Positions 5,554-29,276 of a stretch of 64,000 nucleotides of DNA are shown in pieces. This DNA is from Agrobacterium pusense. Lineage in GTDB: Bacteria > Pseudomonadota > Alphaproteobacteria > Rhizobiales > Rhizobiaceae. Numbering within the stretch: position 1 is the stretch's first letter; every line of letters begins with the position of its first letter. The notes beneath the pieces are model-generated. The model saw only the letters and a list, made by a program, of their open reading frames with translations. It searched no databases and was not told the DNA's origin. Position numbers and translations under genes: made by a program. The stretch lies in the NCBI RefSeq assembly GCF_900102105.1, contig NZ_FNBB01000009.1:1-64000 (forward strand), in the 5' to 3' direction.

Positions 5554-5581
5554 TCCGACCTACAAGTGTTTTCAGGTCGGA
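5554..5581 (-). terminator. Hairpin overlapping the Lrp stop codon
   Basis: Perfect 8-bp arms TCCGACCT / AGGTCGGA with a 12-base loop span the stop codon of the Lrp-type gene. No T-run follows. Together with the neighbouring hairpin it gives a double stem-loop at this convergent junction. Confidence 0.4.
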
Positions 5582-6063
5582 CGAGACGGAGGCTCGGTAT
5601 CTGGCACGACCGACAAGGTGTGCTTGAGACATTTGAGTGCAAAGCAGGAGCGCGAATGGCGCACGCCCTCGATCTTGTAGAGCTTGCGGCGCAGAAATTG
5701 CTCGTAACCTGCGGTTCCCGCCACCGCGACCTTGATGAGATAATCATATTCGCCGGTGGTCAGATAAGCTTCCAGCACCTCTGGAAGAGCCGCCATGGCT
5801 TCGCCGAAACGTTCCAGAACCTCATCATCGTGGCGCTCCAGCATGACCTCGATGATTACCGTCTCGGTCAAGCCTAGCTGCGCCTGATCGAGAATTGCCG
5901 TATAGCCGCGGATAACACCTTCCTCTTCCAGCCGCTTGACTCGCTGCCAGCAGGGGCTGGGTGAAAGTCCCACCTTCTCGGATAGTTCCGTATTGCTCAG
6001 CCTGCCGTTTTCCAGCAGGGCGCGGAGTATTTTGCGGTCGATCCTGTCGAGCGGCTTCGTCAT
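5572..6063 (-). CDS. Lrp/AsnC family transcriptional regulator
   Basis: 163 residues. The N-terminal helix-turn-helix is DRIDRKILRALLENGRLSNT followed by the recognition segment KVGLSPSPCWQRVKRLEEEG, and residues about 75-150 form the RAM effector-binding domain (AYLTTGEYDYLIKV). The ATG at 6063 is favoured because GGAGAG lies just upstream and the family starts close to this point; 64 further codons upstream are open but unlike the family. It is divergent from the two PPC-domain genes, and a palindrome sits in the shared gap. It is probably an amino-acid or metabolite-responsive local regulator of them (inference). Confidence 0.87.
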   Translation of the reverse strand: MTKPLDRIDRKILRALLENGRLSNTELSEKVGLSPSPCWQRVKRLEEEGVIRGYTAILDQAQLGLTETVIIEVMLERHDDEVLERFGEAMAALPEVLEAYLTTGEYDYLIKVAVAGTAGYEQFLRRKLYKIEGVRHSRSCFALKCLKHTLSVVPDTEPPSRPT

Positions 6064-6184
6064 GCCGGTCTCTCCCAAACATGCAGCAAAAAAATCTGCC
6101 GCCGATCCGTCGGCGTGCGAAAGAAGTGTTTTGGTTTCGATGCTTTGGCTGCGCCATTCGAAAGCACCTTCGGCTGGTTTTTTA

Positions 6185-6203
6185 GTACCGTACTGCATGG
6201 TAC
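6185..6203. promoter_or_regulatory. Candidate Lrp operator
   Basis: Inverted repeat GTACC - 9 nt - GGTAC with perfect arms, 21 bases upstream of the first PPC gene and in the gap shared with the Lrp-type regulator. Lrp/AsnC proteins bind imperfect palindromes of about this length. Assignment is by position and symmetry only. Confidence 0.4.
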
Positions 6204-6224
6204 AGGCAGCAGGGAGGAGCGGGC

Positions 6225-6791
6225 ATGGCACCGATATCGCAGCAGCATTTTCCAAGACCCAGGACGTTGATCCATCCCGGTATTTCCGCGCCTGTGCGCA
6301 TCAACAGCCTGCGCTCGCCCTCGGCGCGCCATGTCCGGCTGTTCATCAAGCCGGGGCGCAGCCTTTACGACGGCATCGTTCAGCCGCTTGCGGGGGAAGG
6401 CATTGAAAGCGCCTCCCTGACCATACTCGGAGGGAACTTCGATGGATTGTCCTATTGCGTTGCTCCGCCTGATCCATCCGGCAACGCCGTCATCGCTTAT
6501 ACGAAGCCCATCGACGCCGGTGCGGCGTGGCTCATCTTCGGCAACGCCACGCTCGGGCGCAGCATGAAGGGCGAGCCGATCGTGCATTGCCATGCCGCCA
6601 TGCGAACGGCGGCGGGTTTGGTCAGGGGCGGTCATTTGCTGACAGAATCCTGCATTGTCGGCGAGGGTGGCATTTCCGCGCTTGTGACCTCGCTCGACAG
6701 TTTTCTGTTGCAACAGTCTTTCGATCCAGAAACGAATATTCCCCTTCTTCAACCGAAAAATCGCATGGAGCGCGCCGATGAACATGCATGA
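6225..6791 (+). CDS. PPC/DUF296-domain protein, first half of a split pair
   Basis: 188 residues with one PPC (DUF296) alpha/beta domain, about 30-165. The motif IVHCHAAM carries the His-X-His pair that binds metal in bacterial PPC proteins, and GGHLLTESCIVGEGG follows as in the family. The start has GGAGG 8 bases upstream. It aligns along its length with the first domain of the fused protein at 7236-8120 (shared features: HxH segment, GHLL, and D-P/E-ETN-PL). The next gene starts 14 bases before this one ends. Bacterial PPC proteins have no general function assigned; a metal-dependent or ligand-binding role in the adjoining pathway is inferred. Confidence 0.75.
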   Translation: MAPISQQHFPRPRTLIHPGISAPVRINSLRSPSARHVRLFIKPGRSLYDGIVQPLAGEGIESASLTILGGNFDGLSYCVAPPDPSGNAVIAYTKPIDAGAAWLIFGNATLGRSMKGEPIVHCHAAMRTAAGLVRGGHLLTESCIVGEGGISALVTSLDSFLLQQSFDPETNIPLLQPKNRMERADEHA

Positions 6792-7185
6792 TATTGTCGA
6801 ATCCGGTTCCATGGGACGCGTGGCCTATGCCCGCATAGCCCCCAATGAAGATCTTGTGCTCGGCGTCGAGAAACTGTGCCTGGCCGAGGGCTTCCGCAAT
6901 GCCTTCGTGCGCGGTGCGCTGGGCAGCCTGGTGGATGCGTGCCTCGGCACCCGCAGCGGCGATTTTCTGCAGATAAGCGGCCCCGCCGTTGAAATCGTTT
7001 CGATAGCCGGCGAAGTACGCGCCCAGCCTGATGGCTCGTTGCGCGCTGCGCTGACCGGCGTTGTGGCCGATACGGAGGGTGCGGTTTACGGCGGCCCCTT
7101 CATCGCAGGCGCCAACCCTGTCTGCATGACTTTCGAGGTGACGCTGGAGGAATGGCTGCCGACGGAAAAATCGCAAGCGGCGTGA
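6778..7185 (+). CDS. PPC/DUF296-domain protein, second half of a split pair
   Basis: 135 residues forming a second PPC-type domain. It lacks the His-X-His motif of its upstream partner but keeps a distinctive C-terminal block, GANPVCMTFEVTLEEWL, that matches GKNPVCVTFELLL at the end of the fused protein encoded opposite. RGALGSLVDACL corresponds to NGIGSLIGADY. The gene overlaps the preceding one by 14 bases in a different frame, so the two products are probably translated together and form a hetero-oligomer equivalent to the single-chain version (inference). Confidence 0.72.
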   Translation: MNMHDIVESGSMGRVAYARIAPNEDLVLGVEKLCLAEGFRNAFVRGALGSLVDACLGTRSGDFLQISGPAVEIVSIAGEVRAQPDGSLRAALTGVVADTEGAVYGGPFIAGANPVCMTFEVTLEEWLPTEKSQAA

Positions 7186-7235: not shown

Positions 7236-8120
7236 TCAAGCTGCGGCCTCACGTTTCTCCGTCAGAAGAAGTTCGAAGGTGACGCAAACGGGGTTTTTGC
7301 CGCGCACCAACCGCCCGCCGCTGATGTGGCGGGTGAGATCGACCATCGCAATATCCAGCGCCGTGCGTTCACTGTCGGAGCTGATATGACCTGCGCGGAT
7401 AAGGATTTCGCTGGCGTAGGCGGTAATGGTCGTTCCGTCATCGTAGTCCGCGCCAATAAGGCTTCCAATGCCATTGACATCGGCTTCCGGCAGGCCGAAT
7501 TCCGTGCAGGCCGCTTCGAGGGCGAGGCAGACGTCGGTGTTAGGCCGGACAGTGCATAAAAGCGCCCTCAGTCCCGCATCCTGATGCCTACGCGGCCGGG
7601 GGATGGGTGTGAAAAGCGGAAAATTCGTTTCCTCATCCTGCCGAGCGTCGAGGATCGCTCCGTCAAGCGCCAGCGCCTCAAATTGTATTTCTTGGGCAAA
7701 TTCGGCTTCGAAGGGAAGCAGATGTCCCATGGAGACGACGCCCTGAGCATTTTTCCACGAACCATGGCAGTGCAGAAACGGCTGGCCATCGCGCCGTCCC
7801 ATATGAAGGCCGGCATCGATGATCGTGCCCTCAGGCATGGAAAAGGTTTCGCTGTACCAGGCCGCATGGGAGGCATCAGGAGCGGCCGCGGGCATAACGT
7901 ATTCCAGCCGCTTCATCGGCACGTTTTTCAGCCTGATGTAGCCACCTTCGAAACCCCGTTCCGCAAAGGCAGCGGCAATCGCATCGTTGACGCACATGCC
8001 GGCCCGGACGGTTAACGTGACGGGATGGGCACGGCAGCCGATGGCGCGAAAGCGCTCGGGTGTCTCCGGCCCGGGGTGGACGATGCTGCGCGGAAGCGCT
8101 GCCTGTGCCATCGGCGTCAT
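7236..8120 (-). CDS. Tandem PPC/DUF296-domain protein (fused)
   Basis: 294 residues with two PPC-type domains in one chain: domain 1 at about 25-165 with the metal-type motif FLHCHGSW, and domain 2 at about 180-290 without histidines but ending GKNPVCVTFELLL. It is the last gene of the eight-gene minus-strand operon and overlaps the upstream SDR by 4 bases (ATGA). It is the fused counterpart of the two separate plus-strand genes that converge on it 50 bp away. No enzymatic activity can be claimed. Its place at the end of a CoA-ligase/thiolase operon suggests a role in handling the pathway substrate or in sensing it. Confidence 0.75.
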   Translation of the reverse strand: MTPMAQAALPRSIVHPGPETPERFRAIGCRAHPVTLTVRAGMCVNDAIAAAFAERGFEGGYIRLKNVPMKRLEYVMPAAAPDASHAAWYSETFSMPEGTIIDAGLHMGRRDGQPFLHCHGSWKNAQGVVSMGHLLPFEAEFAQEIQFEALALDGAILDARQDEETNFPLFTPIPRPRRHQDAGLRALLCTVRPNTDVCLALEAACTEFGLPEADVNGIGSLIGADYDDGTTITAYASEILIRAGHISSDSERTALDIAMVDLTRHISGGRLVRGKNPVCVTFELLLTEKREAAA

Positions 8121-8896
8121 ACCGCCAGCCCCGCGGTGATGAAGCCGCCATCCACGGCAAGAACCTGACCATTGACGTAGCTCGCATCATCCGACACCAG
8201 AAACGCCACGGCAGAGGCGATTTCATCGGTTCTGCCATAGCGGTGCATGGGAACACGGCTATGCCACTGGTTGCGAACATTCTCGGTATGGACCGCCTGG
8301 GTCAGCGGTGTATCGACCGGGCCGGGTGCAATTGCATTGACGCGGATGCCGGATTGTCCGAGCTCGTTCGCCATCACCATCGTCAGGAGATTGACGCCGC
8401 CTTTCGAGGCACCATAGGCGCTGCGGCCCCGGTTGCCACACATGCCGGAAACCGAGCTGATGTTGACGATGGAGCCGGGAATCTCACGGTCCAGCCAGTA
8501 ACGCGCCGCCGCGCGAGCCACCGCGAAGCTGCCGACGAGATTGACGTCGACGATGCGGCGAAATTCTTCGACGCTGGTCTCGACGGAAAGCTTGTCGATG
8601 CCGATGCCGGCGCTGTTGACGACGGCCACCAGCTCAACCGCCTGTTCAACGCCATTTACCGTCAACGCGGCGAACGCCTCCTCTATCGACGCTTCATCCG
8701 CCACGTTGCAGACGATGCCACGCGAGGCGTCGATACCGAGCTTCTCGCAGGCCGCGTCCAGCGCTTCGCGCTTGAGATCCAGCAGCCAGGGTTGCCATCC
8801 GCGCGCCATCAGCAGCTGCGCGGTGGAAAAACCGATGCCGGATGCTCCGCCGGTGATCGCGACAGCCCCTTTTGTCCCTGCCGTCCGTTGTGTCAT
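8117..8896 (-). CDS. SDR family NAD(P)-dependent oxidoreductase
   Basis: 259 residues with classical SDR motifs: AITGGASGIGFSTAQLL near the N-terminus, NSAGIG in the centre, a catalytic serine in NISSVSGMCGN and the SAYGASKGG Tyr/Lys pair, ending VLAVDGGFITAGLAV. A strong GGGAGGAGAGG lies just before the ATG. It follows the acyl-CoA ligase by 31 bp and overlaps the tandem-PPC gene by 4 bp. In this operon it could oxidise a hydroxyacyl-CoA or reduce a keto group of the imported acid. The substrate is not readable from sequence. Confidence 0.85.
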   Translation of the reverse strand: MTQRTAGTKGAVAITGGASGIGFSTAQLLMARGWQPWLLDLKREALDAACEKLGIDASRGIVCNVADEASIEEAFAALTVNGVEQAVELVAVVNSAGIGIDKLSVETSVEEFRRIVDVNLVGSFAVARAAARYWLDREIPGSIVNISSVSGMCGNRGRSAYGASKGGVNLLTMVMANELGQSGIRVNAIAPGPVDTPLTQAVHTENVRNQWHSRVPMHRYGRTDEIASAVAFLVSDDASYVNGQVLAVDGGFITAGLAV

Positions 8897-8927
8897 ACCC
8901 TCTCCTCCCGGTTGAATGCCGCGCGCG

Positions 8928-10568
8928 TCAGCCTGTCCGCTTTTCCTCGAAAACCGGCATCTGGCCGCGCCTTTCCAGCTCTTCGCGGATCATTTTCTTT
9001 GTGATCTTGCCATAGGCGGATTTCGGCATGGCATCCCAGAACACGACTGTTTTCGGCAGCTTGTAACGGGCCATCTTGCCTTCCAGATAGGTCTTGAGGT
9101 CGATGCCGGCGATGTCAGCGCCTTCTCTCGCCACGCAGACCGCCACGCCCACTTCGCCCCACACCGCATCTGGCACACCCAGAACCGCCGTCTCGCTGAT
9201 ATCGGGATGCATGAGAATTTTTTCTTCGATCTCGCGCGGATAGATGTTCGAGCCGCCGGAAATATACATGTCGGAGGCGCGCCCGGTGATGTAAACGAAG
9301 CCGTTTTCATCGCGGTGGCCGAGATCGCCGGTGCGGAACCAGCCGTTGCGGAAGGCTTTGGCATTGGCGTCGGGGTTGTTGTAATAACCGGCGAAGACGG
9401 CGGGACCGATCACGCAGATCTCGCCGGTTTCTCCCGCCTCCACCTCTTCGCCTGCGTCGTTCTGGATCTGCACCTCCATGCCTGTCCGGTCGAACCCGCA
9501 GGTGCCGACCCGCGCTTCCGGACCGTCTTCTGCGCTATGAAAAGAAGGGGGAAGCACGGTGATATTACCGGTCACTTCGCCGAGGCCGAAATACTGCACC
9601 AGCACCGGACCGAGCTTTGCCAATGCCCGTTTCTGGTCAGCGCGATACATCGGCGCGCCGGCATAGATGACATAGCGCAGCGAGGAATGATCGAAACGAT
9701 CCACGGACGGGTCTTCGACCAGCATTTTCAGAATGGTCGGCACGGTGAAGGCATTGGTGACACGCCATTTCTCGATCAACGCCCAAACGGCTGGGACATC
9801 GAGTTTTTCCGCTGCCGGCAGCACGGTCTTTGCCCCGTGCGCCACCTGCACCAGCTGGTGAATGCCCGCGCCGTGCGAAAGCGGAGCGACAACGATGGAT
9901 GCGTCGCCTGTTCCCGTGCCGGGCATCAGATCGCAGAGATGGTTGGTGATGACAAAGGCCATCTGCCCGTGGGTCAGCACCGCCGCCTTGGGGCGCCCGG
10001 TGGTGCCCGACGTGAAGAAGAACCAGCAGGGATCGTCGCGATCCACCGCCTCGCCCTTGACCTTCTGACCCAGATGACGGGCGACAATCGCATCATAATC
10101 CTCACCGAATTCCGCCTGACCGATGGCGATGGTGAAATCGATCGCTGCGGCTTCACGGCTTGCTTTCGCATGTTCGGGAAAAGCGCTGGCGCAGATCATG
10201 CCGCGTGCGCCGCTGGCCTTTGCCAGGTAGCCGACTTCATCTGGCGATTGGCGGTAATTGGTCGGCACCCACACCGCGCCCACCCGGAAGCAGGCGAACA
10301 TCGATTCGAACATCTGGTTGTTGTTGGAAGACTGCACCAGAATACGGTCACCCTTGACGACACCGAATTCACTGACCAGCGCATGCGCCATGGCGTCGAC
10401 GCGGGCTTCCATTTGCGCCCAGCTCCAGGTCTTTTCACCCCAGACGAAGCCGATATGATGCGGGTTGCGGCGCGCGGCCTGCGTCAGAAAATGCGAAAGG
10501 TTCATCACCCGCGTGGTTGATGGTGTGACACCGCCCGGAGGATGCTGCACGGGGCCAGGTGTCCTCAT
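8928..10568 (-). CDS. Acyl-CoA synthetase (AMP-dependent ligase)
   Basis: 546 residues of the ANL adenylating superfamily. The P-loop-like motif TSGTTGRPKAAVLTHG, the aromatic YFGLGEVTGN, the hinge region GWFRTGDLG, and the C-terminal catalytic lysine in PKSAYGKITKK are all present, so the enzyme looks intact. It should activate a carboxylic acid to its CoA thioester with ATP. The start overlaps the thiolase stop by 4 bases (ATGA), giving translational coupling; an internal Met at residue 22 (10505) better matches the family N-terminus and is the alternative. In this operon it is the probable first step after TRAP uptake. Confidence 0.88.
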   Translation of the reverse strand: MRTPGPVQHPPGGVTPSTTRVMNLSHFLTQAARRNPHHIGFVWGEKTWSWAQMEARVDAMAHALVSEFGVVKGDRILVQSSNNNQMFESMFACFRVGAVWVPTNYRQSPDEVGYLAKASGARGMICASAFPEHAKASREAAAIDFTIAIGQAEFGEDYDAIVARHLGQKVKGEAVDRDDPCWFFFTSGTTGRPKAAVLTHGQMAFVITNHLCDLMPGTGTGDASIVVAPLSHGAGIHQLVQVAHGAKTVLPAAEKLDVPAVWALIEKWRVTNAFTVPTILKMLVEDPSVDRFDHSSLRYVIYAGAPMYRADQKRALAKLGPVLVQYFGLGEVTGNITVLPPSFHSAEDGPEARVGTCGFDRTGMEVQIQNDAGEEVEAGETGEICVIGPAVFAGYYNNPDANAKAFRNGWFRTGDLGHRDENGFVYITGRASDMYISGGSNIYPREIEEKILMHPDISETAVLGVPDAVWGEVGVAVCVAREGADIAGIDLKTYLEGKMARYKLPKTVVFWDAMPKSAYGKITKKMIREELERRGQMPVFEEKRTG

Positions 10569-11734
10569 TTCACGCGCTCCATGATCGAAACATAGTTGGC
10601 AACCGCGGTGCCGCCCATGTTGAAAACGCCGGCAAGCGAGGCGCCGGGGATCTGCATGTCTCCAGCCTCGTCCATCAACTGCATCGCTGCCATTACATGC
10701 ATGGAAACGCCGGTCGCTCCGACCGGGTGGCCTTTCGATTTCAGTCCCCCTGAAGGGTTGATTGGCAAACGGCCGGTCTTCAGCGCGGTGCCTTCGTGCA
10801 CGACCCGGTGCCCTTCGCCTGGTTTTGCGAGCCCCATGGCCTCATATTCGATAAGTTCAGCTATGGTGAAGCAGTCGTGCGTTTCAACGAAGGAAAGGTC
10901 GTCGAGCGTAGCGCCCGCAAGTTCCAGCGAGCCCGCCCATGCGCGGCGGGCGCCCTCGAAGGCCAGCGGGTCGCGGCGGCTCAGCGCCAGAATGTCATTG
11001 ATCTGTTTTCTGCCCCGAAAGCCGATCGCCCGGTGGAGGCTGGCTGCGGTTTCTTCGTCGGCCAAAACGATGGCCGCCGCGCCGTCGGAAATCAGCGAGC
11101 AGTCGGTACGGCGTAGCGGGCCTGCGACATACGGGTTCTTATCGGACACGGTGTTGCAGAATTCGAAGCCGAAATCCTTGCGCATATGGGCATAGGGATT
11201 GACCGCGCCGTTGGCGTGGTTCTTGGCGGCGATCATCGCAAGCTCCTCCGAGCGATCGCCATAACGCTGGAAATAGGCCTGGGCGATGCGACCGAACTGG
11301 CCGGCAAAACCGCCGGGGATATTGGCCTCTTCTGCGCGGTAGCAAGCAGAGAGCAGAATGTCGCCTACCTCGGCGGTGGGAAGCGCCGTCATTTTTTCGG
11401 CGCCCACGACGAGCGCAATGCGGCCCCGCCCCGCCTCGATGAAATCCATCGCGCTGTACAGGGCGGCCGATCCCGTCGCGCAGGCATTTTCGAAGCGCAC
11501 GGCGGGCGTATAGGCCAGTCTTTCATCACCCATTGCCACCAGGGCGCCCTGAAAATCCTGTTTCGAGAAACCATTGTTCATCACACCGACAAAAATGCCG
11601 TCGATATCGCCAACGTCGATGCCCGCATGGTCTATGGCCGGCGCGACTACTGACGCCATCAGCTGTTCGGTATTTTCAAGGGTCGATTTGCCGAAAGGCG
11701 AATGCGCCCAGCCGACGATCTGCGCTTTGCTCAT
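10565..11734 (-). CDS. Thiolase family protein, SCP2/SCP-x type
   Basis: 389 residues. The nucleophilic cysteine lies in FENACATGSAAL, the motif ETHDCFTIAE is the HDCF signature of SCP2-type thiolases, and SGGLKSKGHPVGATG supplies the catalytic histidine. The GVFNMGGTAVANY tail replaces the CxG motif of classical acetyl-CoA acetyltransferases, as is usual in this branch. It should cleave a 3-ketoacyl-CoA, perhaps branched or ring-derived. It overlaps by 4 bases with the IclR gene before it and the ligase after it. Confidence 0.87.
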   Translation of the reverse strand: MSKAQIVGWAHSPFGKSTLENTEQLMASVVAPAIDHAGIDVGDIDGIFVGVMNNGFSKQDFQGALVAMGDERLAYTPAVRFENACATGSAALYSAMDFIEAGRGRIALVVGAEKMTALPTAEVGDILLSACYRAEEANIPGGFAGQFGRIAQAYFQRYGDRSEELAMIAAKNHANGAVNPYAHMRKDFGFEFCNTVSDKNPYVAGPLRRTDCSLISDGAAAIVLADEETAASLHRAIGFRGRKQINDILALSRRDPLAFEGARRAWAGSLELAGATLDDLSFVETHDCFTIAELIEYEAMGLAKPGEGHRVVHEGTALKTGRLPINPSGGLKSKGHPVGATGVSMHVMAAMQLMDEAGDMQIPGASLAGVFNMGGTAVANYVSIMERVK

Positions 11735-12588
11735 TTGCTCGTTCTCCTTGCCTGTCGCTTCGGTTCGCCGTCGCCGCGCGTGCGTGCGCGGCTGGCCATC
11801 ATTTCTGCGATGCGTGTTTCGATACGTGTCACCTCTTCGCGCAGCAGCGCCGCCAGTTCTGGCTGACGCTCCGGCCGCATGCGGCTATCGACGGCGGCGA
11901 TGCTCAACGCTCCCGCCACCGCTCCATCCGGCGTGCGGATTGCGACACCGATACCCCATGAATTGGAAAGGATGAGGCCTGGATTGAGCGAGTAGCCGTT
12001 CGCCCGGGTCAATTCGACATCACGGCGTAGCCCGTCGAGCGTGATGCCGGGATAATTCGCGGCGATGAGGCCGCTATTGGCGGCAATGACGCTATCCACT
12101 TCGGCATCGGGCAGGGCGGCCAGCATGGCGAGAGATCCGGCGCCGATACCCAGCGGGTGCTCGAAACCGGCCTGGAGCGCATGGGTACGCACGGGCCAGG
12201 TGCCTTCCTCGCGATAGAGGCAGAGAGAAAACGTATCGCGGCGTACCGAAAGGAAGCTCGAATCCTCGGTACGGCGGGAAATACGCGTCAGTCCGTCCTG
12301 TGCCATCTGTAACAATCCGAAACGGCGTGACGACAGGCTGCCCAGCACGTAGGCTTCCTCGCCGAGATAATATCGGCGTGTCTCTTCGTCCTGTTCCACG
12401 AGGCCTGCCCGGATCAACGCCAGCAGCAGGCGGCGGGCCGTTGGCTTGTTCAACCCGCTTTCGGCGACGATGCCGGAAAGCGACACACCGCGTTCGGCGT
12501 GCCGCCCCACCATGGACAGCAGCGCCAGCGCCCGGTCCACGGCACGTGCCCCTGTCAGATCGTTTTCCGCCGCAACCACCGTGGCCAT
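11731..12588 (-). CDS. IclR family transcriptional regulator
   Basis: 285 residues from the ATG at 12588, which follows the upstream SDR stop by a single base (TGATATG). The N-terminal winged helix-turn-helix contains VSLSGIVAESGLNKPTARRL, and residues about 85-270 form the IclR effector domain with GIGAGSLAMLAALPDAEVD. A 50-codon extension upstream would run into the SDR and is unlike the family. It is embedded in the middle of the operon it probably controls, so it may autoregulate. Its ligand is likely the imported acid or a CoA ester (inference). Confidence 0.87.
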   Translation of the reverse strand: MATVVAAENDLTGARAVDRALALLSMVGRHAERGVSLSGIVAESGLNKPTARRLLLALIRAGLVEQDEETRRYYLGEEAYVLGSLSSRRFGLLQMAQDGLTRISRRTEDSSFLSVRRDTFSLCLYREEGTWPVRTHALQAGFEHPLGIGAGSLAMLAALPDAEVDSVIAANSGLIAANYPGITLDGLRRDVELTRANGYSLNPGLILSNSWGIGVAIRTPDGAVAGALSIAAVDSRMRPERQPELAALLREEVTRIETRIAEMMASRARTRGDGEPKRQARRTSK

Positions 12589-12589
12589 A

Positions 12590-13405
12590 TCAGGTAAACG
12601 CCCCCACTGCGCAACTTTGGCCGCCGTCGACCGGCAGGCAGATGCCCGTGATAAATTTTGCTTCATCGGATGCCAGAAAAACGGCGGCGCGGGCGATATC
12701 GAAGGCATCACCCATGCGCCCCACGGGCACCGCGGCATTACGCGCCGCCACCATTTCCTCGACGGAGGCGTACTGGCTGCTGATCTGCTTGTAGATCAGC
12801 GGCGTATCGATCATGCCCGGCAGAACGCAATTGGCGCGAATACCTTGCCGTGCGTATTGCATCGCCAGCGCCACGGTGGCCTGGTTGACCGCGGCCTTCA
12901 TGGCGTAATAGGCGAAATAAGGATAGCCGGTCCAGCGGATCGAGGCGAGTGAGGAAATATTGACGATGGCGCCGCCGCCCTGCCTCAGCATCACCGGCAG
13001 AACAGCCTTGGCGGTGCGATAGACAGAGCCGATGTTGAGATCGACGGAGGCGCGAAAGCGCTCCTCATCCAGCTCCACCGGCCCGCCCATATGCGTCACG
13101 CCGACATTATTGTGCAGAATGTCGATGCCATCAAAGGCATCGCAGGTTCGTGCAACTGCCGCTGATACGGATTCCAGCTTCGTGACATCGGCGGCAACGG
13201 CGATTGCCTCAAAACCTTCTTCGCGGATGATCTGCGCGGTTTCTTCAGCCGCGCCGGCGGAGAGGTCGACACAGGCCACGCGCGCGCCCTCACGGGCAAA
13301 TTGCACGGCCGCAGCCTTGCCATTGCCAAAGCCCGGCCCCGATGATCCTGCGCCAAATACAAGCGCGCGTTTTCCCGTCAGGCGACCTGTCAAAACAGTC
13401 TCCAT
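12590..13405 (-). CDS. SDR family oxidoreductase
   Basis: 271 residues with a modified nucleotide-binding loop FGAGSSGPGFGNGKAAAV, a central NNVGVTHMGG, serine in INISSLASIR and the catalytic YFAYYAMKAAVNQ, ending TGICLPVDGGQSCAVGAFT. The extended glycine loop with two extra residues differs from the TGGxxGIG form of the other SDRs here, so this is a separate subgroup. It is located between the TRAP binding protein and the IclR regulator. It probably performs one redox step on the imported substrate. Confidence 0.85.
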   Translation of the reverse strand: METVLTGRLTGKRALVFGAGSSGPGFGNGKAAAVQFAREGARVACVDLSAGAAEETAQIIREEGFEAIAVAADVTKLESVSAAVARTCDAFDGIDILHNNVGVTHMGGPVELDEERFRASVDLNIGSVYRTAKAVLPVMLRQGGGAIVNISSLASIRWTGYPYFAYYAMKAAVNQATVALAMQYARQGIRANCVLPGMIDTPLIYKQISSQYASVEEMVAARNAAVPVGRMGDAFDIARAAVFLASDEAKFITGICLPVDGGQSCAVGAFT

Positions 13406-13429
13406 TAAAACAGCCAGAAGTGATCGGAT

Positions 13430-13452
13430 CGGCCCCGCTTGCGGCGGGACCG
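13430..13452 (-). other. Intercistronic stem-loop after dctP
   Basis: About 9 paired bases around GGTCCCGCC / AGCGGGGCC (one G.U pair in the minus-strand RNA) lie 17 bases beyond the binding-protein stop codon and before the SDR start. A stem in this position often protects the upstream message and lowers expression of downstream genes, which would suit a periplasmic binding protein needed in excess. Confidence 0.4.
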
Positions 13453-13468
13453 ATTATTTGCTGACCGG

Positions 13469-14479
13469 TCAGGTCAGGCTGGCGCCAACGGCCTTTTCGA
13501 GAATGGCCCAGGCTTCGTCGCCATATTTGCTTTTCCACTCCGAATAGAATCCGGCTTCCTTGAGGGCTGCACGGAAGAGCGATGCGTCAGTATCGTTGAA
13601 GGCCATGCCCTTGCTGATCAAGTCTTCCTTCACCGAGGCGTTGAGCTTCGCCACGTCGGCGCGTTCATCCTTGCCGGCCTGATTGAGGTTCTTGGCAACG
13701 ATGGTGCGCAGGTCGTCCGGCAGCCGCTCCCACGCGCGCTTGTTGGCGAGGAACCAGAAACCATCCCACATGTGATTGGTAACCGAGCAGAACTTCTGCA
13801 CTTCGAAGAGCTTCGCGGTGGAAATGATGGCCAGAGGGTTTTCCTGGCCGTCGACGACGCCGGTCTGCAACGCGGTGTAGACTTCCGCGAAGTTGATGGA
13901 AGCGGGAGCCGACTTGAAGGCCTTGAACATCGAGGTCCAGAGAGGGCTCACCGGCACGCGGATCTTGAAACTTTCGAGATCGGCAGGCGTGGTGATGGGT
14001 TTCGACGCGCTGGTGATCTGGCGGAAACCGTTGTCCCAGATCGTATCCATGGCGACGAGATTCTGTTTGGCAATTTCACCGCGTACATATTTGCCGAGAT
14101 CGCCGTCCATGGCCGCCCATACGGAATCATAATCCGGGAAGGCAAAGCCGATGCCGCTGATGGACGCGTTTGGTACCAGCGTGGACAGGATCAGCGGCGA
14201 GAGCGTGAAGAATTCAACGCCGCCGGAACGCACCTGGCTCAGCATGTCGGTATCGGCCCCCAACTGGCTGCTGGGGAATATCTTGATATTGACCCGCCCG
14301 TCGGTTTCTTTCTCGATACGATCGGCCGCTTCCTTGGCGCGCACGTTCATGGGGTGCGCAGCCGGCAGGTTATTGGCATATTTGTAGCTGAATTCCGCGG
14401 CGCGTGCGCGCGATACGAACGCGGTGGCAAGAACGGCAGAACCGGCGCCCGCGAGCATGGTACGTCTGTTGATGATCAT
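13469..14479 (-). CDS. dctP: TRAP transporter substrate-binding protein, DctP family
   Basis: 336 residues with a Tat-like leader (NRRTMLAGAGSAVLATAFVSRARA, cleaved near residue 28) and the DctP fold. The family segment KIRVPVSPLWTSMFKAF contains the arginine that binds the carboxylate of the ligand, and VVDGQENPLAII is the conserved block after it. GGAGGAGAAAG precedes the start. It delivers an organic acid to the fused membrane component encoded 65 bp upstream. The downstream ligase, thiolase and SDR genes suggest a CoA-dependent degradable acid. Confidence 0.9.
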   Translation of the reverse strand: MIINRRTMLAGAGSAVLATAFVSRARAAEFSYKYANNLPAAHPMNVRAKEAADRIEKETDGRVNIKIFPSSQLGADTDMLSQVRSGGVEFFTLSPLILSTLVPNASISGIGFAFPDYDSVWAAMDGDLGKYVRGEIAKQNLVAMDTIWDNGFRQITSASKPITTPADLESFKIRVPVSPLWTSMFKAFKSAPASINFAEVYTALQTGVVDGQENPLAIISTAKLFEVQKFCSVTNHMWDGFWFLANKRAWERLPDDLRTIVAKNLNQAGKDERADVAKLNASVKEDLISKGMAFNDTDASLFRAALKEAGFYSEWKSKYGDEAWAILEKAVGASLT

Positions 14480-14544
14480 TGCTTTCTCCTCCCAAATAAA
14501 AGCATGTGTCGTTCGTCGGCATGGCGGGCGGACCCGCCACGGTG

Positions 14545-16422
14545 TCAGAGCAGAATTGTGGATAGACCCGGAATTCCGGCAATCAGCAGCAGGCCGATGA
14601 CCATGGCTGCGAGATAGGGCCAGATGGCACCCATGGCTTCATCGGGCGAGACATTGCCGATCTTGCAGGCAATGTAGAAGCCGATGCCGATGGGCGGCGC
14701 CATCAGGCCGATATTCATGGCGACCACCACGACCATCGAATAATGGATGTCGTTGATGCCGAGCGTGCGGGCAATGGGGAACATGATCGGCGCGAGCAGA
14801 ACGATTGCAGGCAGTCCTTCCAGCACGCAGCCGAGGATCATGAAGATCAGGATCGACACGATCATGTAGGTCATCCAGCCGCCCGGCAGGTCGGTTATCA
14901 TGGCGGTCAATTCGAAGGCGAAACCGCTTTGCGTCAAACCCCAGGCCATGGCGGAGGCGCAGCCGAGGATCAGCAGGATCGCGCCCGAGAGCGCCGCTGT
15001 CTCCACCAGCATGGAGTAGAGTTTTTTCAGGCTGATCCCGCCATAAAGCACCGCGCCGATAATCATGGCATAGAGCACTGCAATGGTGGATACTTCGGTC
15101 GCCGTTGCCACACCGCCGCCCACAAGGCTGCGGATGAGGAAAGGCAGAACCAGAGCGGGGGCGGCAACCAGTGCCGCCTTGCCGACCAGCGGCCAAGGGG
15201 TGCGTCTGGCGCCATCCATGTTTTCGTTGCGTGCTTTCCACCGGGCCAATACCGCCAGCACCAGAAGCAGCACCATGGCGATCATGAAGCCGGAGGTAAA
15301 CAGGCCGGCAATCGATACGCCCGCTGCCGAACCGAGGACGATGAGAACGATGGACGGCGGAACGGTATCGGCCATGGCGGCGCCGGTGGCCAGCAGTGCG
15401 ATCATTTCCTTGGGCTTGTGGCCGCGTCGCTTCATTTCCGGAAACAGCGCAGGTGCGACCGTTGCCATATCTGAAACCTTGGAGCCGGAAATGCCCGAGA
15501 CCAGAAACAGCGAACCGAGCAGAACATAGGACATGCCCGCGCGGATGTGGCCGAACATTGAGGACAGCAGTTCGACGATCGCCTTGCCCATGCCGGTTGC
15601 GTCAAGGACGCAGCCCAGCAGCACGAATACCGGCACCGACAGCAGAATGATGCCCGACATTCCTTCATCCATGCGCCCGACCATAACGATCATCGGAACC
15701 CAGGTGGTGAAAGTTAGATAGGACAATGTTCCAAGGCCGAAACAGAAGGCAATGGGCACGCCGAGCGCCAAAAACACCGCCACGAACAGGCCGAGGAAGA
15801 TCGCCAGGTTAAAATTGCCAAAGGATTCCAGTGTGGGCGACGCCAGAAACAGCAGGCCGGCCGCCACCGCAACCGTGACGATAGCGGCGACGATGTCCCG
15901 CAGCCTTTCCCTCCGGAGGAGGTTGTTCATGACCAGGAGCAACATCAGGGAGGCGCCGAATGGCAGGGCTGCGGCGCGGAAAGTCATGGGAATGTTCAGC
16001 GCCGCCGATGTGACGACCCATTCCTCGATGGCGTATTCGATTGCGGGCTTGATGATAGCCGCAAGAAATGTCGCCACCAGCACCAGCGCCAAAGAATTGA
16101 TGTAACCCAGAAAACGCTGCGGAAACATGTTGAGGAACAGCGTCAGGCGCAGGTGCTCGCTACGGTCGATGGCAATGGCCGCACCCAGCATGGCAAACCA
16201 CAGGAAGCACAACGACGCCGTTTCATCGATCCAGACAATCGGCAGATGCAAGGCATAACGTGATGTCACGCCGAGCAGAAGCAGGCCGATCATCAGCGCC
16301 AAAAGAATGGCTGCCATGGCCTCGACCGGCCGCATGAACCAGGAGCCTGTTACCGGCTCCGTGTGCAGTAGCTCGCCGTCGAGCACAAAGACGTCGTCAT
16401 TCGCGTTTGCGGTCATGGTCAT
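14545..16422 (-). CDS. TRAP transporter fused small and large permease (DctQM)
   Basis: 625 residues combining both TRAP membrane subunits. Residues about 30-200 are the four-helix DctQ part (GVTSRYALHLPIVWIDETAS is its signature region) and about 215-625 the twelve-helix DctM part, which contains SGISGSKVSDMATVAPALFP and the C-terminal NIGLMAPPIGIGFYIACKIG. The ATG at 16422 is chosen because GAGAGGAGG lies just upstream. It is the first gene of the operon. The transporter should be driven by a sodium gradient, as in other TRAP systems. Confidence 0.9.
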   Translation of the reverse strand: MTMTANANDDVFVLDGELLHTEPVTGSWFMRPVEAMAAILLALMIGLLLLGVTSRYALHLPIVWIDETASLCFLWFAMLGAAIAIDRSEHLRLTLFLNMFPQRFLGYINSLALVLVATFLAAIIKPAIEYAIEEWVVTSAALNIPMTFRAAALPFGASLMLLLVMNNLLRRERLRDIVAAIVTVAVAAGLLFLASPTLESFGNFNLAIFLGLFVAVFLALGVPIAFCFGLGTLSYLTFTTWVPMIVMVGRMDEGMSGIILLSVPVFVLLGCVLDATGMGKAIVELLSSMFGHIRAGMSYVLLGSLFLVSGISGSKVSDMATVAPALFPEMKRRGHKPKEMIALLATGAAMADTVPPSIVLIVLGSAAGVSIAGLFTSGFMIAMVLLLVLAVLARWKARNENMDGARRTPWPLVGKAALVAAPALVLPFLIRSLVGGGVATATEVSTIAVLYAMIIGAVLYGGISLKKLYSMLVETAALSGAILLILGCASAMAWGLTQSGFAFELTAMITDLPGGWMTYMIVSILIFMILGCVLEGLPAIVLLAPIMFPIARTLGINDIHYSMVVVVAMNIGLMAPPIGIGFYIACKIGNVSPDEAMGAIWPYLAAMVIGLLLIAGIPGLSTILL

Positions 16423-16581: not shown

Positions 16582-16594
16582 TCCACGATATGGA
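16582..16594. promoter_or_regulatory. Candidate operator copy 1 (TCCA-N5-TGGA)
   Basis: TCCACGATATGGA, an inverted repeat with a 5-base spacer, 160 bases upstream of the DctQM start. A second copy with the same half-sites lies 108 bases further. IclR proteins bind short palindromes of this size, and an IclR gene is in the operon. Confidence 0.4.
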
Positions 16595-16689
16595 CCGTTA
16601 CAAAACCATACGTTCGGGATACACAGGAAGAATGATAAAATCAATAGTAAAAGGCCGCAATTACGCAGTTTTAGACTCGCGTATAGAGG

Positions 16690-16702
16690 TCCATATAGTG
16701 GA
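16690..16702. promoter_or_regulatory. Candidate operator copy 2 (TCCA-N5-TGGA)
   Basis: TCCATATAGTGGA has the same half-sites and spacer length as the copy at 16582. Flanking AG and CT extend the symmetry after one mismatch. Pairing of two such sites supports a shared regulator. Confidence 0.4.
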
Positions 16703-16841: not shown

Positions 16842-18878
16842 TCAAATGTCCTTTGCGAGGCGCAGGGCGTCGTAGATCGCCGCATGGGTGTTGCGCGCCG
16901 CGACGGCATCGCCGATGCGGAACAACCGATATGTGCCTGTCGGATTGCGCGCGACGGTCTGAGCCTCTCCGGCGAGCAGGGCGTCATAGGAAACCTCCCC
17001 GAGATTTGTCGAGCCGGGCTTGAGTTCGAAATACAGTTCTTCCAGCGGGACTGTACCGTGATTGACGACGATCTGGTCGACGGTGCGCTGTCTGGAAATG
17101 CCGCCATAGTCGCTGCCGACGTGGGCGACGATCTGGTTGCCGCTTCTTTCGGCTGCTTCCAGCCGGTAAGTGACGGTAAATGTGGCGTCGAGCTTTTGCA
17201 GCGAGCGCATATAGGGAACGAGATTCATGGCCATAACTTCAGGGGCGAAGGAGCGATCCGGTGTCATGATTTCCACCTTGCCGCCAGCCTTGGCGATGAG
17301 CTCGGCCGCCTGAAGGCCGGCATGGTCTCCCGCGTCGTCATAGACGAGAACATTGGCACCCGGCCTGACGTCTCCGGAAATAATATCCCACGCGGAGACG
17401 ACCAGTTCGTTGCCCTTAGACAGCACCTCGGTATGCGGCAGCCCGCCTGAGGCGATGATCACCACATCGGGTTTTTGCGAGAGAACCGTGTCCGCTTCCG
17501 CCCAGCTGTTGAAGTGGAAGACGACACCGAGCTTTTCGCACTGGCTCATGCGCCAGTCGATGATGCCGGTCATTTCCCGGCGGCGTTCGCTCTGCGCGGT
17601 GAGGCGAATCTGCCCGCCCGGATGGCTCGCTGCCTCGAAGACCACGACCGTATGGCCGCGTTCGGCACAGACCCTTGCGGCTTCGAGGCCTCCCGGCCCG
17701 GCGCCGACGATAACCACCTTCACGCTTTTCGCAGCCTTGGTGATGGCGTGCGGCATGGTTTCCTCGCGGCCGGTTGCCGGATTGTGAATGCAGAAGGCAA
17801 GGCCGCCCTGATAGATGCGGTCGAGACAGTAATTAGCGCCGACGCAGGGGCGGATATCGTCCTCCCGCTTTTCCACGATCTTGCGCACGATATGCGGATC
17901 GGTCATGTGCGCGCGGGTCATGCCGACCATGTCCACCTTGCCGGTGGCGATGGCATGCCGGGCTGTGGCAACGTCCTGAATTTTGGCGGCATGGAAGGTC
18001 GGGAAACGTGTCGCTGCACGGATTTCCCCGGCAAAATCGAGGTGTGGCGCACTTGCCATGCCCTGAATCGGGATAACGTCGGTCAGGCCGGCATCGGTGT
18101 CGATATGCCCCCTGATGACGTTGAGATAATCGATCAGACCGCTTTCTTTCAGCAGTCTGGAGATTTCGAGGCCTTCTGCCTTTCCGGTGCCACCCTCCAG
18201 ACATTCATCGGCGGTGTAACGAACACCGAGGATGAAGTCCTCGCCCACGCGCCTGCGTATCGCCCGGAAAACGTCGAGGCAGAAACGCATGCGGTTTTCG
18301 AGCGAGCCACCATAGGGGCCATCCAGCTCGTTGGTCAGCGGGGAGACGAACTGATCGATGAGATGACCATAGGCCTCCAGCTCCACCCCGTCCATGCCGC
18401 CAGCCTTCATACGCTCGGCGGCGTCGGCGAAATCCTTGATGACACGCTCAATATCCCAATCCTCGATTTTCTTCGGAAAGGCGCGATGAGCGGCTTCCCG
18501 CTGGTGTGAAGGTGCGAGCACCGGCAGCCAGTCACCCTTGTCCCACCGGGTGCGCCGGCCAAGATGAGTGAGCTGGATCATGATTGCCGACCCCGCCTCG
18601 TGGACGGCGTCGGTCATTTCCCTGATCCACGGAACGATTTCATCCTTGTACGCGAGCAAATTGTTGAAGACGGGAGGGCTGTCTTTCGAAACGGCGGCTG
18701 AGCCTGCGGTCATCGTCAACGCCACGCCGCCTTTCGCACGCTCGACGGTATAGGCGCGATAACGCCCTTTCGGCATGCCGTCTTCCGGATAAGCGGGCTC
18801 ATGCGACGTCACGATGATACGGTTGCGCAGCGTCAGGTGCTTCAGCTGATAGGGTTGAAGAAGGGGATCGTTCGACAT
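16842..18878 (-). CDS. stcD: NADH:flavin oxidoreductase, StcD-like N-methylproline demethylase
   Basis: 678 residues from the ATG at 18878 (TTGGAG upstream). Residues about 1-360 form an old-yellow-enzyme TIM barrel; 370-678 are FAD/NAD-binding, with VVIVGAGPGGLEAARVCAERG. Length and sequence pattern match, from memory, the S. meliloti stachydrine-locus protein StcD, thought to demethylate N-methylproline; dimethylglycine demethylases are close relatives. The iron-sulfur motif reads CVGANYCLDR, so Ala replaces one cysteine seen in 2,4-dienoyl-CoA reductase and trimethylamine dehydrogenase. It is single in its unit and divergent from a TetR regulator. No other stachydrine genes are in the window, so the substrate is provisional. 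Confidence 0.72.
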   Translation of the reverse strand: MSNDPLLQPYQLKHLTLRNRIIVTSHEPAYPEDGMPKGRYRAYTVERAKGGVALTMTAGSAAVSKDSPPVFNNLLAYKDEIVPWIREMTDAVHEAGSAIMIQLTHLGRRTRWDKGDWLPVLAPSHQREAAHRAFPKKIEDWDIERVIKDFADAAERMKAGGMDGVELEAYGHLIDQFVSPLTNELDGPYGGSLENRMRFCLDVFRAIRRRVGEDFILGVRYTADECLEGGTGKAEGLEISRLLKESGLIDYLNVIRGHIDTDAGLTDVIPIQGMASAPHLDFAGEIRAATRFPTFHAAKIQDVATARHAIATGKVDMVGMTRAHMTDPHIVRKIVEKREDDIRPCVGANYCLDRIYQGGLAFCIHNPATGREETMPHAITKAAKSVKVVIVGAGPGGLEAARVCAERGHTVVVFEAASHPGGQIRLTAQSERRREMTGIIDWRMSQCEKLGVVFHFNSWAEADTVLSQKPDVVIIASGGLPHTEVLSKGNELVVSAWDIISGDVRPGANVLVYDDAGDHAGLQAAELIAKAGGKVEIMTPDRSFAPEVMAMNLVPYMRSLQKLDATFTVTYRLEAAERSGNQIVAHVGSDYGGISRQRTVDQIVVNHGTVPLEELYFELKPGSTNLGEVSYDALLAGEAQTVARNPTGTYRLFRIGDAVAARNTHAAIYDALRLAKDI

Positions 18879-18931
18879 GGGCCTGCTCCAAGGGGGGTTA
18901 TGGTGCGAGGCTAAGAGGAAATGTACATATG

Positions 18932-27890: not shown

Positions 27891-29276
27891 TTATTTTGGC
27901 AGCCGGGTCTTCAGCGATGTCACGATACGCTTGGCCAACCCCTCATAATCCTCGTCAAAGTGGTGGCCGCCCTCGATGCCGACCGCCTCCACGCCCTTGG
28001 CTTTCAGGCCGGGGCAGGGGTCTTCGTCTTCTTCTTCCGTGCCATATATGCATTGCACCAGCTTCGGATCGATCTTGGCGATGTCATCCACCGTTTTGCC
28101 GCCCTTGCCTTCGCCGGCCACGCCAAGCCAGCCTTCGACGGAAATTTCGAAATCCACTTCGGTGGAAAGACCCATCAGGGTCAGCTGCACGACATGCGAT
28201 TTGTCGCGGTCGGGCAGCAGATTATAGGTGGCGGGGATAATATCGGCACCGAAGGAATAGCCGATCAACACCACATTGCGGACTTTCCATTCCTTGCGAT
28301 AGGTATCGATGATGCGGCCGAGATCGCTTGCGACCTCCTGTGGTTTCTTTTCCTTCCAGAAATAGCGGAGTGAATCGACGCCGATGACGGGTATGCCTTC
28401 CTTCTGGAAGGCGCCGCCCACTTCTTCGTCAAGATCGCGCCAGCCGCCGTCGCCGGAATAGATCACCGCCATGGTGTCCATGACAGGGCTGGTTTCCAGA
28501 ACCTTGATCGGCAGGCCGAGCGGACTGTCGGTGTCGCCTGCGGCGTCGACCTGGTCGGAGAGGGTCTGGGTCAGAACCTCGTCCGCCTTATCATCCACAT
28601 CCGTCACGTCGATATCGGGATGCAGCTTCACGAGCGCGTTGACGTGGTCGCGGCCCTTCTGATCCGCAGCAGAGGTGAACAGCACGCTGACGGGGGCAGG
28701 AAGGGGACCGTCGGTCAGACCATAAACGGTTTCGCCATCCACTTTATCCTTGGTGGCGGGGGTACAGAGGATCTTCTCGAGAGGCAGGCCGGCCTTGGGG
28801 TCCACGGTGATGGCCTCCCGCACGGTGGAGACAGGGCTCTGCGCAATCATCGCCAGCGCCAGCGTTCCGCCCTTGCCGATGCCGGAAAGGATGGGCTGGC
28901 GATAGCTGCTGGTGCCAGCGGTGCGCTGGATCTGCTGCGAGAGTGACTCGATGTCCGAGATCATATAGATGCACTCGTCATCGTCGGCCTCGAGCGCCTT
29001 CAGATATTCCTTGAAGTCGATGCCGACCACGGCGGCGCCCTTTTCTACCAGCGCCTTGGCACGGGTCTCATCGGCCGCCGACCATCCGTCCGCATCGGAA
29101 ATCAGGAAGACGCTGGCGAGGATGTCGCCATCAGGCACCATGATGTGCCCGGCGGGGATCATGCCGGTTTCGTATGCGGGCTTGTCCTCAGCAAAAACGG
29201 CGCTAGAAACGAACAAGGGGGATGCAAACAGGGCGGAGGCGGCCAGAACTGCTTTGAGCATGCTGAATCTTCTCAT
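27891..29276 (-). CDS. acvB: AcvB, periplasmic hydrolase of aminoacylated phosphatidylglycerol
   Basis: 461 residues from the ATG at 29276, which overlaps the mprF stop by 4 bases (ATGA). A Sec signal (LKAVLAASALFASPLFVSSA, about 6-29) directs it to the periplasm. It has two alpha/beta-hydrolase halves: the first contains GIGKGG in place of a serine elbow and looks catalytically degenerate, the second carries GYSFGAD with Ser341 and GGHHFDED with His438/439. AcvB, related to VirJ, was first noted for its effect on virulence and later reported to hydrolyse lysyl-phosphatidylglycerol. Pairing with the synthase gene agrees with that role. Confidence 0.92.
   Translation of the reverse strand: MRRFSMLKAVLAASALFASPLFVSSAVFAEDKPAYETGMIPAGHIMVPDGDILASVFLISDADGWSAADETRAKALVEKGAAVVGIDFKEYLKALEADDDECIYMISDIESLSQQIQRTAGTSSYRQPILSGIGKGGTLALAMIAQSPVSTVREAITVDPKAGLPLEKILCTPATKDKVDGETVYGLTDGPLPAPVSVLFTSAADQKGRDHVNALVKLHPDIDVTDVDDKADEVLTQTLSDQVDAAGDTDSPLGLPIKVLETSPVMDTMAVIYSGDGGWRDLDEEVGGAFQKEGIPVIGVDSLRYFWKEKKPQEVASDLGRIIDTYRKEWKVRNVVLIGYSFGADIIPATYNLLPDRDKSHVVQLTLMGLSTEVDFEISVEGWLGVAGEGKGGKTVDDIAKIDPKLVQCIYGTEEEDEDPCPGLKAKGVEAVGIEGGHHFDEDYEGLAKRIVTSLKTRLPK

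Follow-up and report, generated by a model that had tools for sequence, protein, structure and literature searches.

A conserved Agrobacterium operon with a tandem PPC/DUF296 protein beside a CoA ligase, and its possible role in the catabolism of an acetolactate-like acid

3-Oxo-isoapionate is, by structure, a doubly hydroxylated acetolactate, and DUF35 proteins are non-catalytic partners of some SCP2-thiolase-like enzymes. Work on the PPC (DUF296) family has so far centred on nuclear proteins of plants and, among bacteria, on a regulatory role: LmiA of E. coli O157:H7 is described, in the accessible text, as a single-domain DUF296 protein that regulates positively and probably has a zinc site (PMC7667037). 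Relatives of OiaK- and OiaX-type enzymes act on 3-oxo-isoapionate-4-phosphate, according to the available part of PMC6302742, and a review credits Vetting et al. 2015 with adding 2-acetolactate to the known TRAP ligands (PMC5812351). That such acids can be present extracellularly is seen in engineered yeast, which builds up acetolactate and 2,3-dihydroxyisovalerate outside the cell (PMC5678825). Our literature search, which lay mostly outside subscription journals and included the accessible parts of PMC7667037 and PMC10434189, found neither a metabolic role for DUF296 nor a described pathway for the ligase and PPC core reported here.

The window (the whole 64,000-nucleotide stretch of Agrobacterium pusense DNA that was analysed) belongs to a 5.28-Mb genome and contains eight genes that probably import a small branched acid, add coenzyme A to it and cut it (Table 1). 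Open reading frames and family matches confirmed that the eight are intact, lie on the minus strand and follow the order given in the first-pass annotation. The gaps are 65 bp (DctQM–DctP), 63 bp (DctP–SDR1), 4 bp (SDR1–IclR, presuming the IclR ATG at 12585; a longer ORF starts at 12738), −4 bp (IclR–thiolase), −4 bp (thiolase–ligase), 31 bp (ligase–SDR2) and −4 bp (SDR2–PPC), which bears out the earlier count of five junctions that overlap or span less than 35 bp. A Pfam search found the DctP, DctQ and DctM domains of a TRAP transporter all present. The thiolase belongs to the PRK07516 family by its NF005704 score and its conserved Cys, HDCF and GHP motifs, with C85, H286-D287-C288 and H336, which we take to be the catalytic residues, conserved in 36 of 36 aligned homologues. 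Pfam and NCBIfam searches of the eight proteins matched no acyl-CoA dehydrogenase or hydratase family, as had been claimed; the eight genes lack the acyl-CoA dehydrogenase and enoyl-CoA hydratase of a β-oxidation operon, and the earlier statement that this is not ordinary β-oxidation holds for the operon itself. The proposed succession of uptake, CoA activation, oxidation and thiolysis is consistent with the protein families and the thiolase residues; the reaction steps themselves we infer.

Table 1. Features of the operon and its immediate surroundings in the window.
Feature	Coordinates	Strand	Remarks
Lrp/AsnC regulator	5572..6255	-	beside PPCb/PPCc
PPCb, split-type first PPC domain	6225..6791	+	PF03479 22.4 bits (below cut-off 25); HCH...GGH motif
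PPCc, split-type second PPC domain	6778..7185	+	PF03479 46.7 bits; without HxH...GH motif
Tandem PPC/DUF296 protein	7236..8120	-	PF03479 on C half; H117-C-H119...G-H133 in N half
SDR2 oxidoreductase	8117..8896	-	PF13561
Acyl-CoA synthetase/ligase (NF005676/PRK07470)	8928..10568	-	981 bits against cut-off 774
SCP2-type thiolase (NF005704/PRK07516)	10565..11734	-	669 bits against cut-off 412
IclR-family regulator	11731..12585	-	PF09339 + PF01614
SDR1 oxidoreductase	12590..13405	-	PF13561
DctP TRAP solute-binding protein	13469..14479	-	PF03480; 73% identity to PDB 4OAN
DctQM fused TRAP permease	14545..16422	-	PF04290 + PF06808
Second, inverted palindrome copy TCCACGATATGGACC	16582..16596	+	one of two exact genome matches
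Operator-like palindrome TCCACTATATGGACC, upstream	16688..16702	-	presumed IclR-type site; one of two exact genome matches

In an alignment of the region upstream of dctQM from seven Agrobacterium loci, the window's included, conservation started at GATCCACTAT[AG]TGGACC. The upstream palindrome is conserved in all seven loci, and the conserved stretch takes in the second, inverted copy, the starts of the two copies being 106 bp apart. A genome-wide search for TCCACNATATGGACC returned two exact matches, both upstream of dctQM, and two more sites at one mismatch, located on other contigs; the reversed control gave none. When up to three mismatches were allowed, the window by itself gave 8 matches where 3.2 would be expected, which leaves only the exact pair as informative; we presume these twin palindromes to be IclR-type operators. 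Promoter-like sites in the window were about as frequent as chance predicts (5 against 4.6), and terminator-like sites numbered 19 against 12.3 expected (s.d. 3.2), many of them within genes. As judged from sequence, the gaps, the synteny and the unique palindrome pair before dctQM support the single transcription unit first proposed. The genome search for a conserved gene order, suggested at the same time, found the same order in other genera, which makes the arrangement more than chance. Paracoccus denitrificans PD1222 is one carrier of the operon.

A minus-strand gene 419 bp upstream of the operon (16842–18884) encodes a FadH/OYE-type flavoenzyme of 680 aa, which matches mycofactocin OYE 2 as its top-scoring NCBIfam model (487.8 bits, below the cut-off of 793). 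Its inclusion as a ninth gene was unsupported, with no match at half coverage or more in loci L022–L042; absence from L022–L027 says little because five of them (L022–L025 and L027) include no more than ~1.7 kb before dctQM and L026 includes no upstream sequence, and the longer loci tell more. Elsewhere in the window, two adjacent minus-strand ORFs (27891–31873) presumably correspond to an lpiA/acvB pair, which they resemble by sequence.

With the tandem PPC as query, matches came from 14 of 61 relatives (12 of the 37 in the genus), 18 of 385 genomes in a class sample (14 from other orders, 13 of those split-type) and 34 of 398 in a phylum sample. Of the last, 11 belong to other classes; nine of these match only over a short part, and two (G963, G1057) are pairs of halves. 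A further 56 plasmid records were matched. Excluding the window, 78 loci were reduced to 70 by removing 8 repeats of one place, and eight of the 70 are close Agrobacterium copies. A ligase lies within 1.2 kb of PPC in 65 of these 70 distinct loci. Of 15 split-type loci, 14 have a ligase within 1.2 kb of the split PPC pair, which in other lineages is itself the partner placed after the ligase. Five loci have no ligase inside 1.2 kb: in L031 it is one gene further off, with an SDR between, in L131 it is ~7 kb away, L146 is a contig of just 5.4 kb, and the others are L033 and L176. The Skermanella tandem PPC of L033 (14001–14873), without a nearby ligase, adjoins parAB-like genes. Among the 56 loci longer than 12 kb, a thiolase was found within 4.5 kb in 41, an IclR gene in 33 and a DctP of the same clade in 34, the last figure being inflated because 18 of the 70 loci were drawn from 40 regions fetched by DctP similarity and counted for their PPC. 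The TRAP genes are replaced by those of another clade in L031, L039 and L042 (25–29% identity), and no thiolase lies within 4.5 kb of the PPC–ligase pair in, for example, L028, L032, L038, L141 and L142. Because the transporter is exchangeable and the thiolase sometimes missing nearby, ligase and PPC are the core, usually with an SCP2-type thiolase, in many alphaproteobacterial families.

Behind the R. leguminosarum WSM2304 copy (L040, 7745–11542) come genes for an acyl-CoA dehydrogenase and an enoyl-CoA hydratase together with mmsB, a set like that of valine breakdown. The split-type loci L144–L157 contain AcuI-like reductase or cluster genes in 11 of 14 cases, and the two reductases tested scored 442 and 440.5 bits against the acrylyl-CoA reductase equivalog cut-off of 440. 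A PRK09060 dihydroorotase-like gene is present in 9 of these 14 loci, and all three tested were above cut-off.

The tandem PPC protein belongs to PF03479 (37.4 bits, gathering cut-off 25) through its C half, which lacks the histidine motif carried by its N half. This combination of one metal-type and one degenerate domain is kept in all 30 tandem PPCs aligned; 32 had been called as genes, two being omitted for length (L028, in which the motif is present, and L031). The split-type alignment comprised 14 PPCb sequences minus one and 15 PPCc sequences minus two. In the window, PPCb is 29% identical to the N half of the tandem protein and PPCc 35% identical to the C half, the pair sitting just downstream of the operon in convergent orientation. 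Within the genus 12 genomes bear PPC: PPCb, PPCc and the Lrp gene are all present at that place in 10 of them and all absent in two (L012, L013). On average the tandem PPCs share 38% identity with their counterpart in the window, and the thiolases 69%.

The tandem PPC appears to have a fold like that of acetolactate decarboxylase (ALDC), and this protein, usually labelled 'DNA-binding', may instead be a metal enzyme of ALDC-like shape. Direct sequence homology to ALDC was unsupported: one comparison gave a probability of 0.2% (E 0.32) and a second 1.0% (E 0.056), with the metal motif as the sole aligned stretch. In the Pfam search at E ≤ 0.001, the tandem protein matched PF03479 and not PF03306 (ALDC). 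Classical ALDC was found in 0 of 61 genomes, including the window's own, by a search that recovered it from 3 of 14 known genomes as a control, and in 5 of 200 genomes of the phylum. According to the first-pass annotation, no role of PPC in such pathways is known; the literature covered here gave DUF296 no metabolic role either, but PPC is here a near-strict partner of the ligase and its fold appears ALDC-like.

The best solved relative of the window's DctP is 4OAN (E 3.2e-154; next relative, E 1.1e-41), an entry that we take to model (S)-2-acetolactate as its ligand. A structure prediction of DctP from 7 near-identical sequences had a mean pLDDT of 36.2. A tree built from 4OAN and 53 DctP relatives places 4OAN and the window's DctP in one clade, in which a CoA ligase lies near 39 of the 40 other members (L115 has none); these ligases are of the PRK07470 type, with or without PPC, or belong to a PRK08162-like cluster. 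An OiaK-like kinase lies near eight of the ten outer tips, most with RuBisCO-like or VOC genes (L159 and L160 have neither), and a mixed branch holds L119 (none), L131 (ligase) and the second DctP of L133 (kinase). The OiaK-like and RuBisCO-like proteins tested beside outer TRAP loci scored below equivalog cut-offs (437, and 546 or 478, against 700). In L133–L140, TRAP genes whose DctP is 55–63% like the window's stand beside an OiaK-like kinase, a RuBisCO-like protein and VOC genes, and these neighbourhoods are possibly an undescribed relative of apiose pathways. In L101–L112 the 4OAN-like TRAP genes adjoin a different acyl-CoA synthetase cluster (12 of 12; the one tested is PRK08162), and at least 7 of the 12 genomes have a PPC match elsewhere. 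The transporter ligand, the outer pathways and the PPC fold each point weakly to α-hydroxy-β-oxo acids; where the first-pass annotation had given no substrate, we hypothesise acetolactate-like acids.

Our preferred reading, which we hold tentatively and at somewhat below even confidence, is that the genes form one inducible operon for the catabolism of a short acetolactate-type acid (α-hydroxy, α-alkyl, with a keto or hydroxy group on the β carbon), the PPC pair being a metal enzyme with an ALDC-like site. DctPQM would import the acid and the ligase would form its CoA thioester, acetolactyl-CoA in the case of acetolactate. An SDR would oxidise a β-hydroxyl where needed, so bringing in β-hydroxy forms, and the thiolase would split the α-branched β-keto thioester into acetyl-CoA and a 2-hydroxyacyl-CoA (lactoyl-CoA from acetolactate), a route that would require neither hydratase nor dehydrogenase. 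The PPC pair, with its metal-type and degenerate domains, would act on the ligase's product or substrate, perhaps by ketol rearrangement or epimerisation of the thioester to give the right isomer, or by cleaving it directly at loci that lack a nearby thiolase. IclR would govern the unit via the twin palindromes. More doubtful is the general proposal that tandem and split PPC/DUF296 proteins are ALDC-fold metalloenzymes on CoA thioesters of α-hydroxy-β-oxo acids, in an undescribed CoA-dependent alphaproteobacterial route for acetolactate-like acids; this would be the first catalytic role of the domain.

PPC could instead be a metal-dependent dehydratase or hydratase of a CoA thioester, the ligase activating a hydroxy acid, PPC dehydrating it and, in split-type clusters, AcuI reducing the enoyl-CoA, as in 3-hydroxypropionate-like assimilation. 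The AcuI-type reductases of the split-type loci fit this role better and are, like the dihydroorotase-like genes, unexplained by the acetolactate reading; a dehydratase would also supply the missing hydratase and suit PPC–ligase pairs with no thiolase nearby. We nevertheless consider it unlikely, as the AcuI cluster has no members in the window or any mapped tandem-type locus and the SCP2-type thiolase would be left unexplained. Slightly less credence goes to an ordinary operon for an unrelated acid with a coincidental acetolactate link. Aromatic acids are favoured solely by the paa or pca genes adjoining two Paracoccus copies, which do not appear as a cluster common to the mapped loci; the presumed 4OAN ligand and the ALDC-like fold agree in direction.

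That PPC is a DNA-binding regulator without a catalytic part, as database names have it, seems improbable to us. Some PDB relatives bear titles that call them putative DNA-binding proteins, one plasmid record calls PPCc a 'PPC domain-containing DNA-binding protein', and LmiA is reported as a positive regulator in the accessible text of PMC7667037; against this, AF0104 is titled 'metal-containing', the operon already has an IclR gene, and PPC follows the ligase also at loci without a detected IclR. The constant pairing of a live and a dead metal-type domain fits an active site, although a zinc site is proposed for LmiA too. Least probable is a non-catalytic, DUF35-like partner of the thiolase: the thiolase is the usual neighbour and no DUF35 match was found among the eight proteins (Pfam), but PPC and ligase also occur together with no thiolase within 4.5 kb.

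The operon is real, conserved and tightly organised, the outline first drawn for it holds, and PPC is its interesting part. If the PPC pair is an enzyme, as in our preferred reading, a domain family that is widespread in prokaryotes would acquire a catalytic function, and a route for branched hydroxy-keto acids would open.

Compared with known systems, the operon shares with SCP2-type β-oxidation the thiolase family and its conserved residues, and differs in having neither acyl-CoA dehydrogenase nor enoyl-CoA hydratase. Relatives of the OiaK kinase and the RuBisCO-like OiaX of the 3-oxo-isoapionate pathway occur beside outer DctP relatives; family searches of the eight proteins found neither enzyme in the operon, which has a CoA ligase in place of the kinase. 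Its DctP is 73% identical to 4OAN and falls within the same CoA-ligase clade, whereas of 13 mapped relatives of 4OAN at 81–87%, 12 stand beside another ligase cluster (one tested, PRK08162) and one (L113) has PPC, ligase and thiolase. LmiA has the same Pfam domain and the same three-histidine spacing (85, 87, 101), but it is reported as a regulator, and the accessible text mentions no tandem or split pair or ligase (PMC7667037). The HxH...GGH metal motif of ALDC resembles the putative metal motif of PPC, but the spacing from the second to the third histidine is 11 in ALDC and 13–14 in PPC, and the PPC proteins also differ from ALDC in having a CoA ligase as their genome partner.
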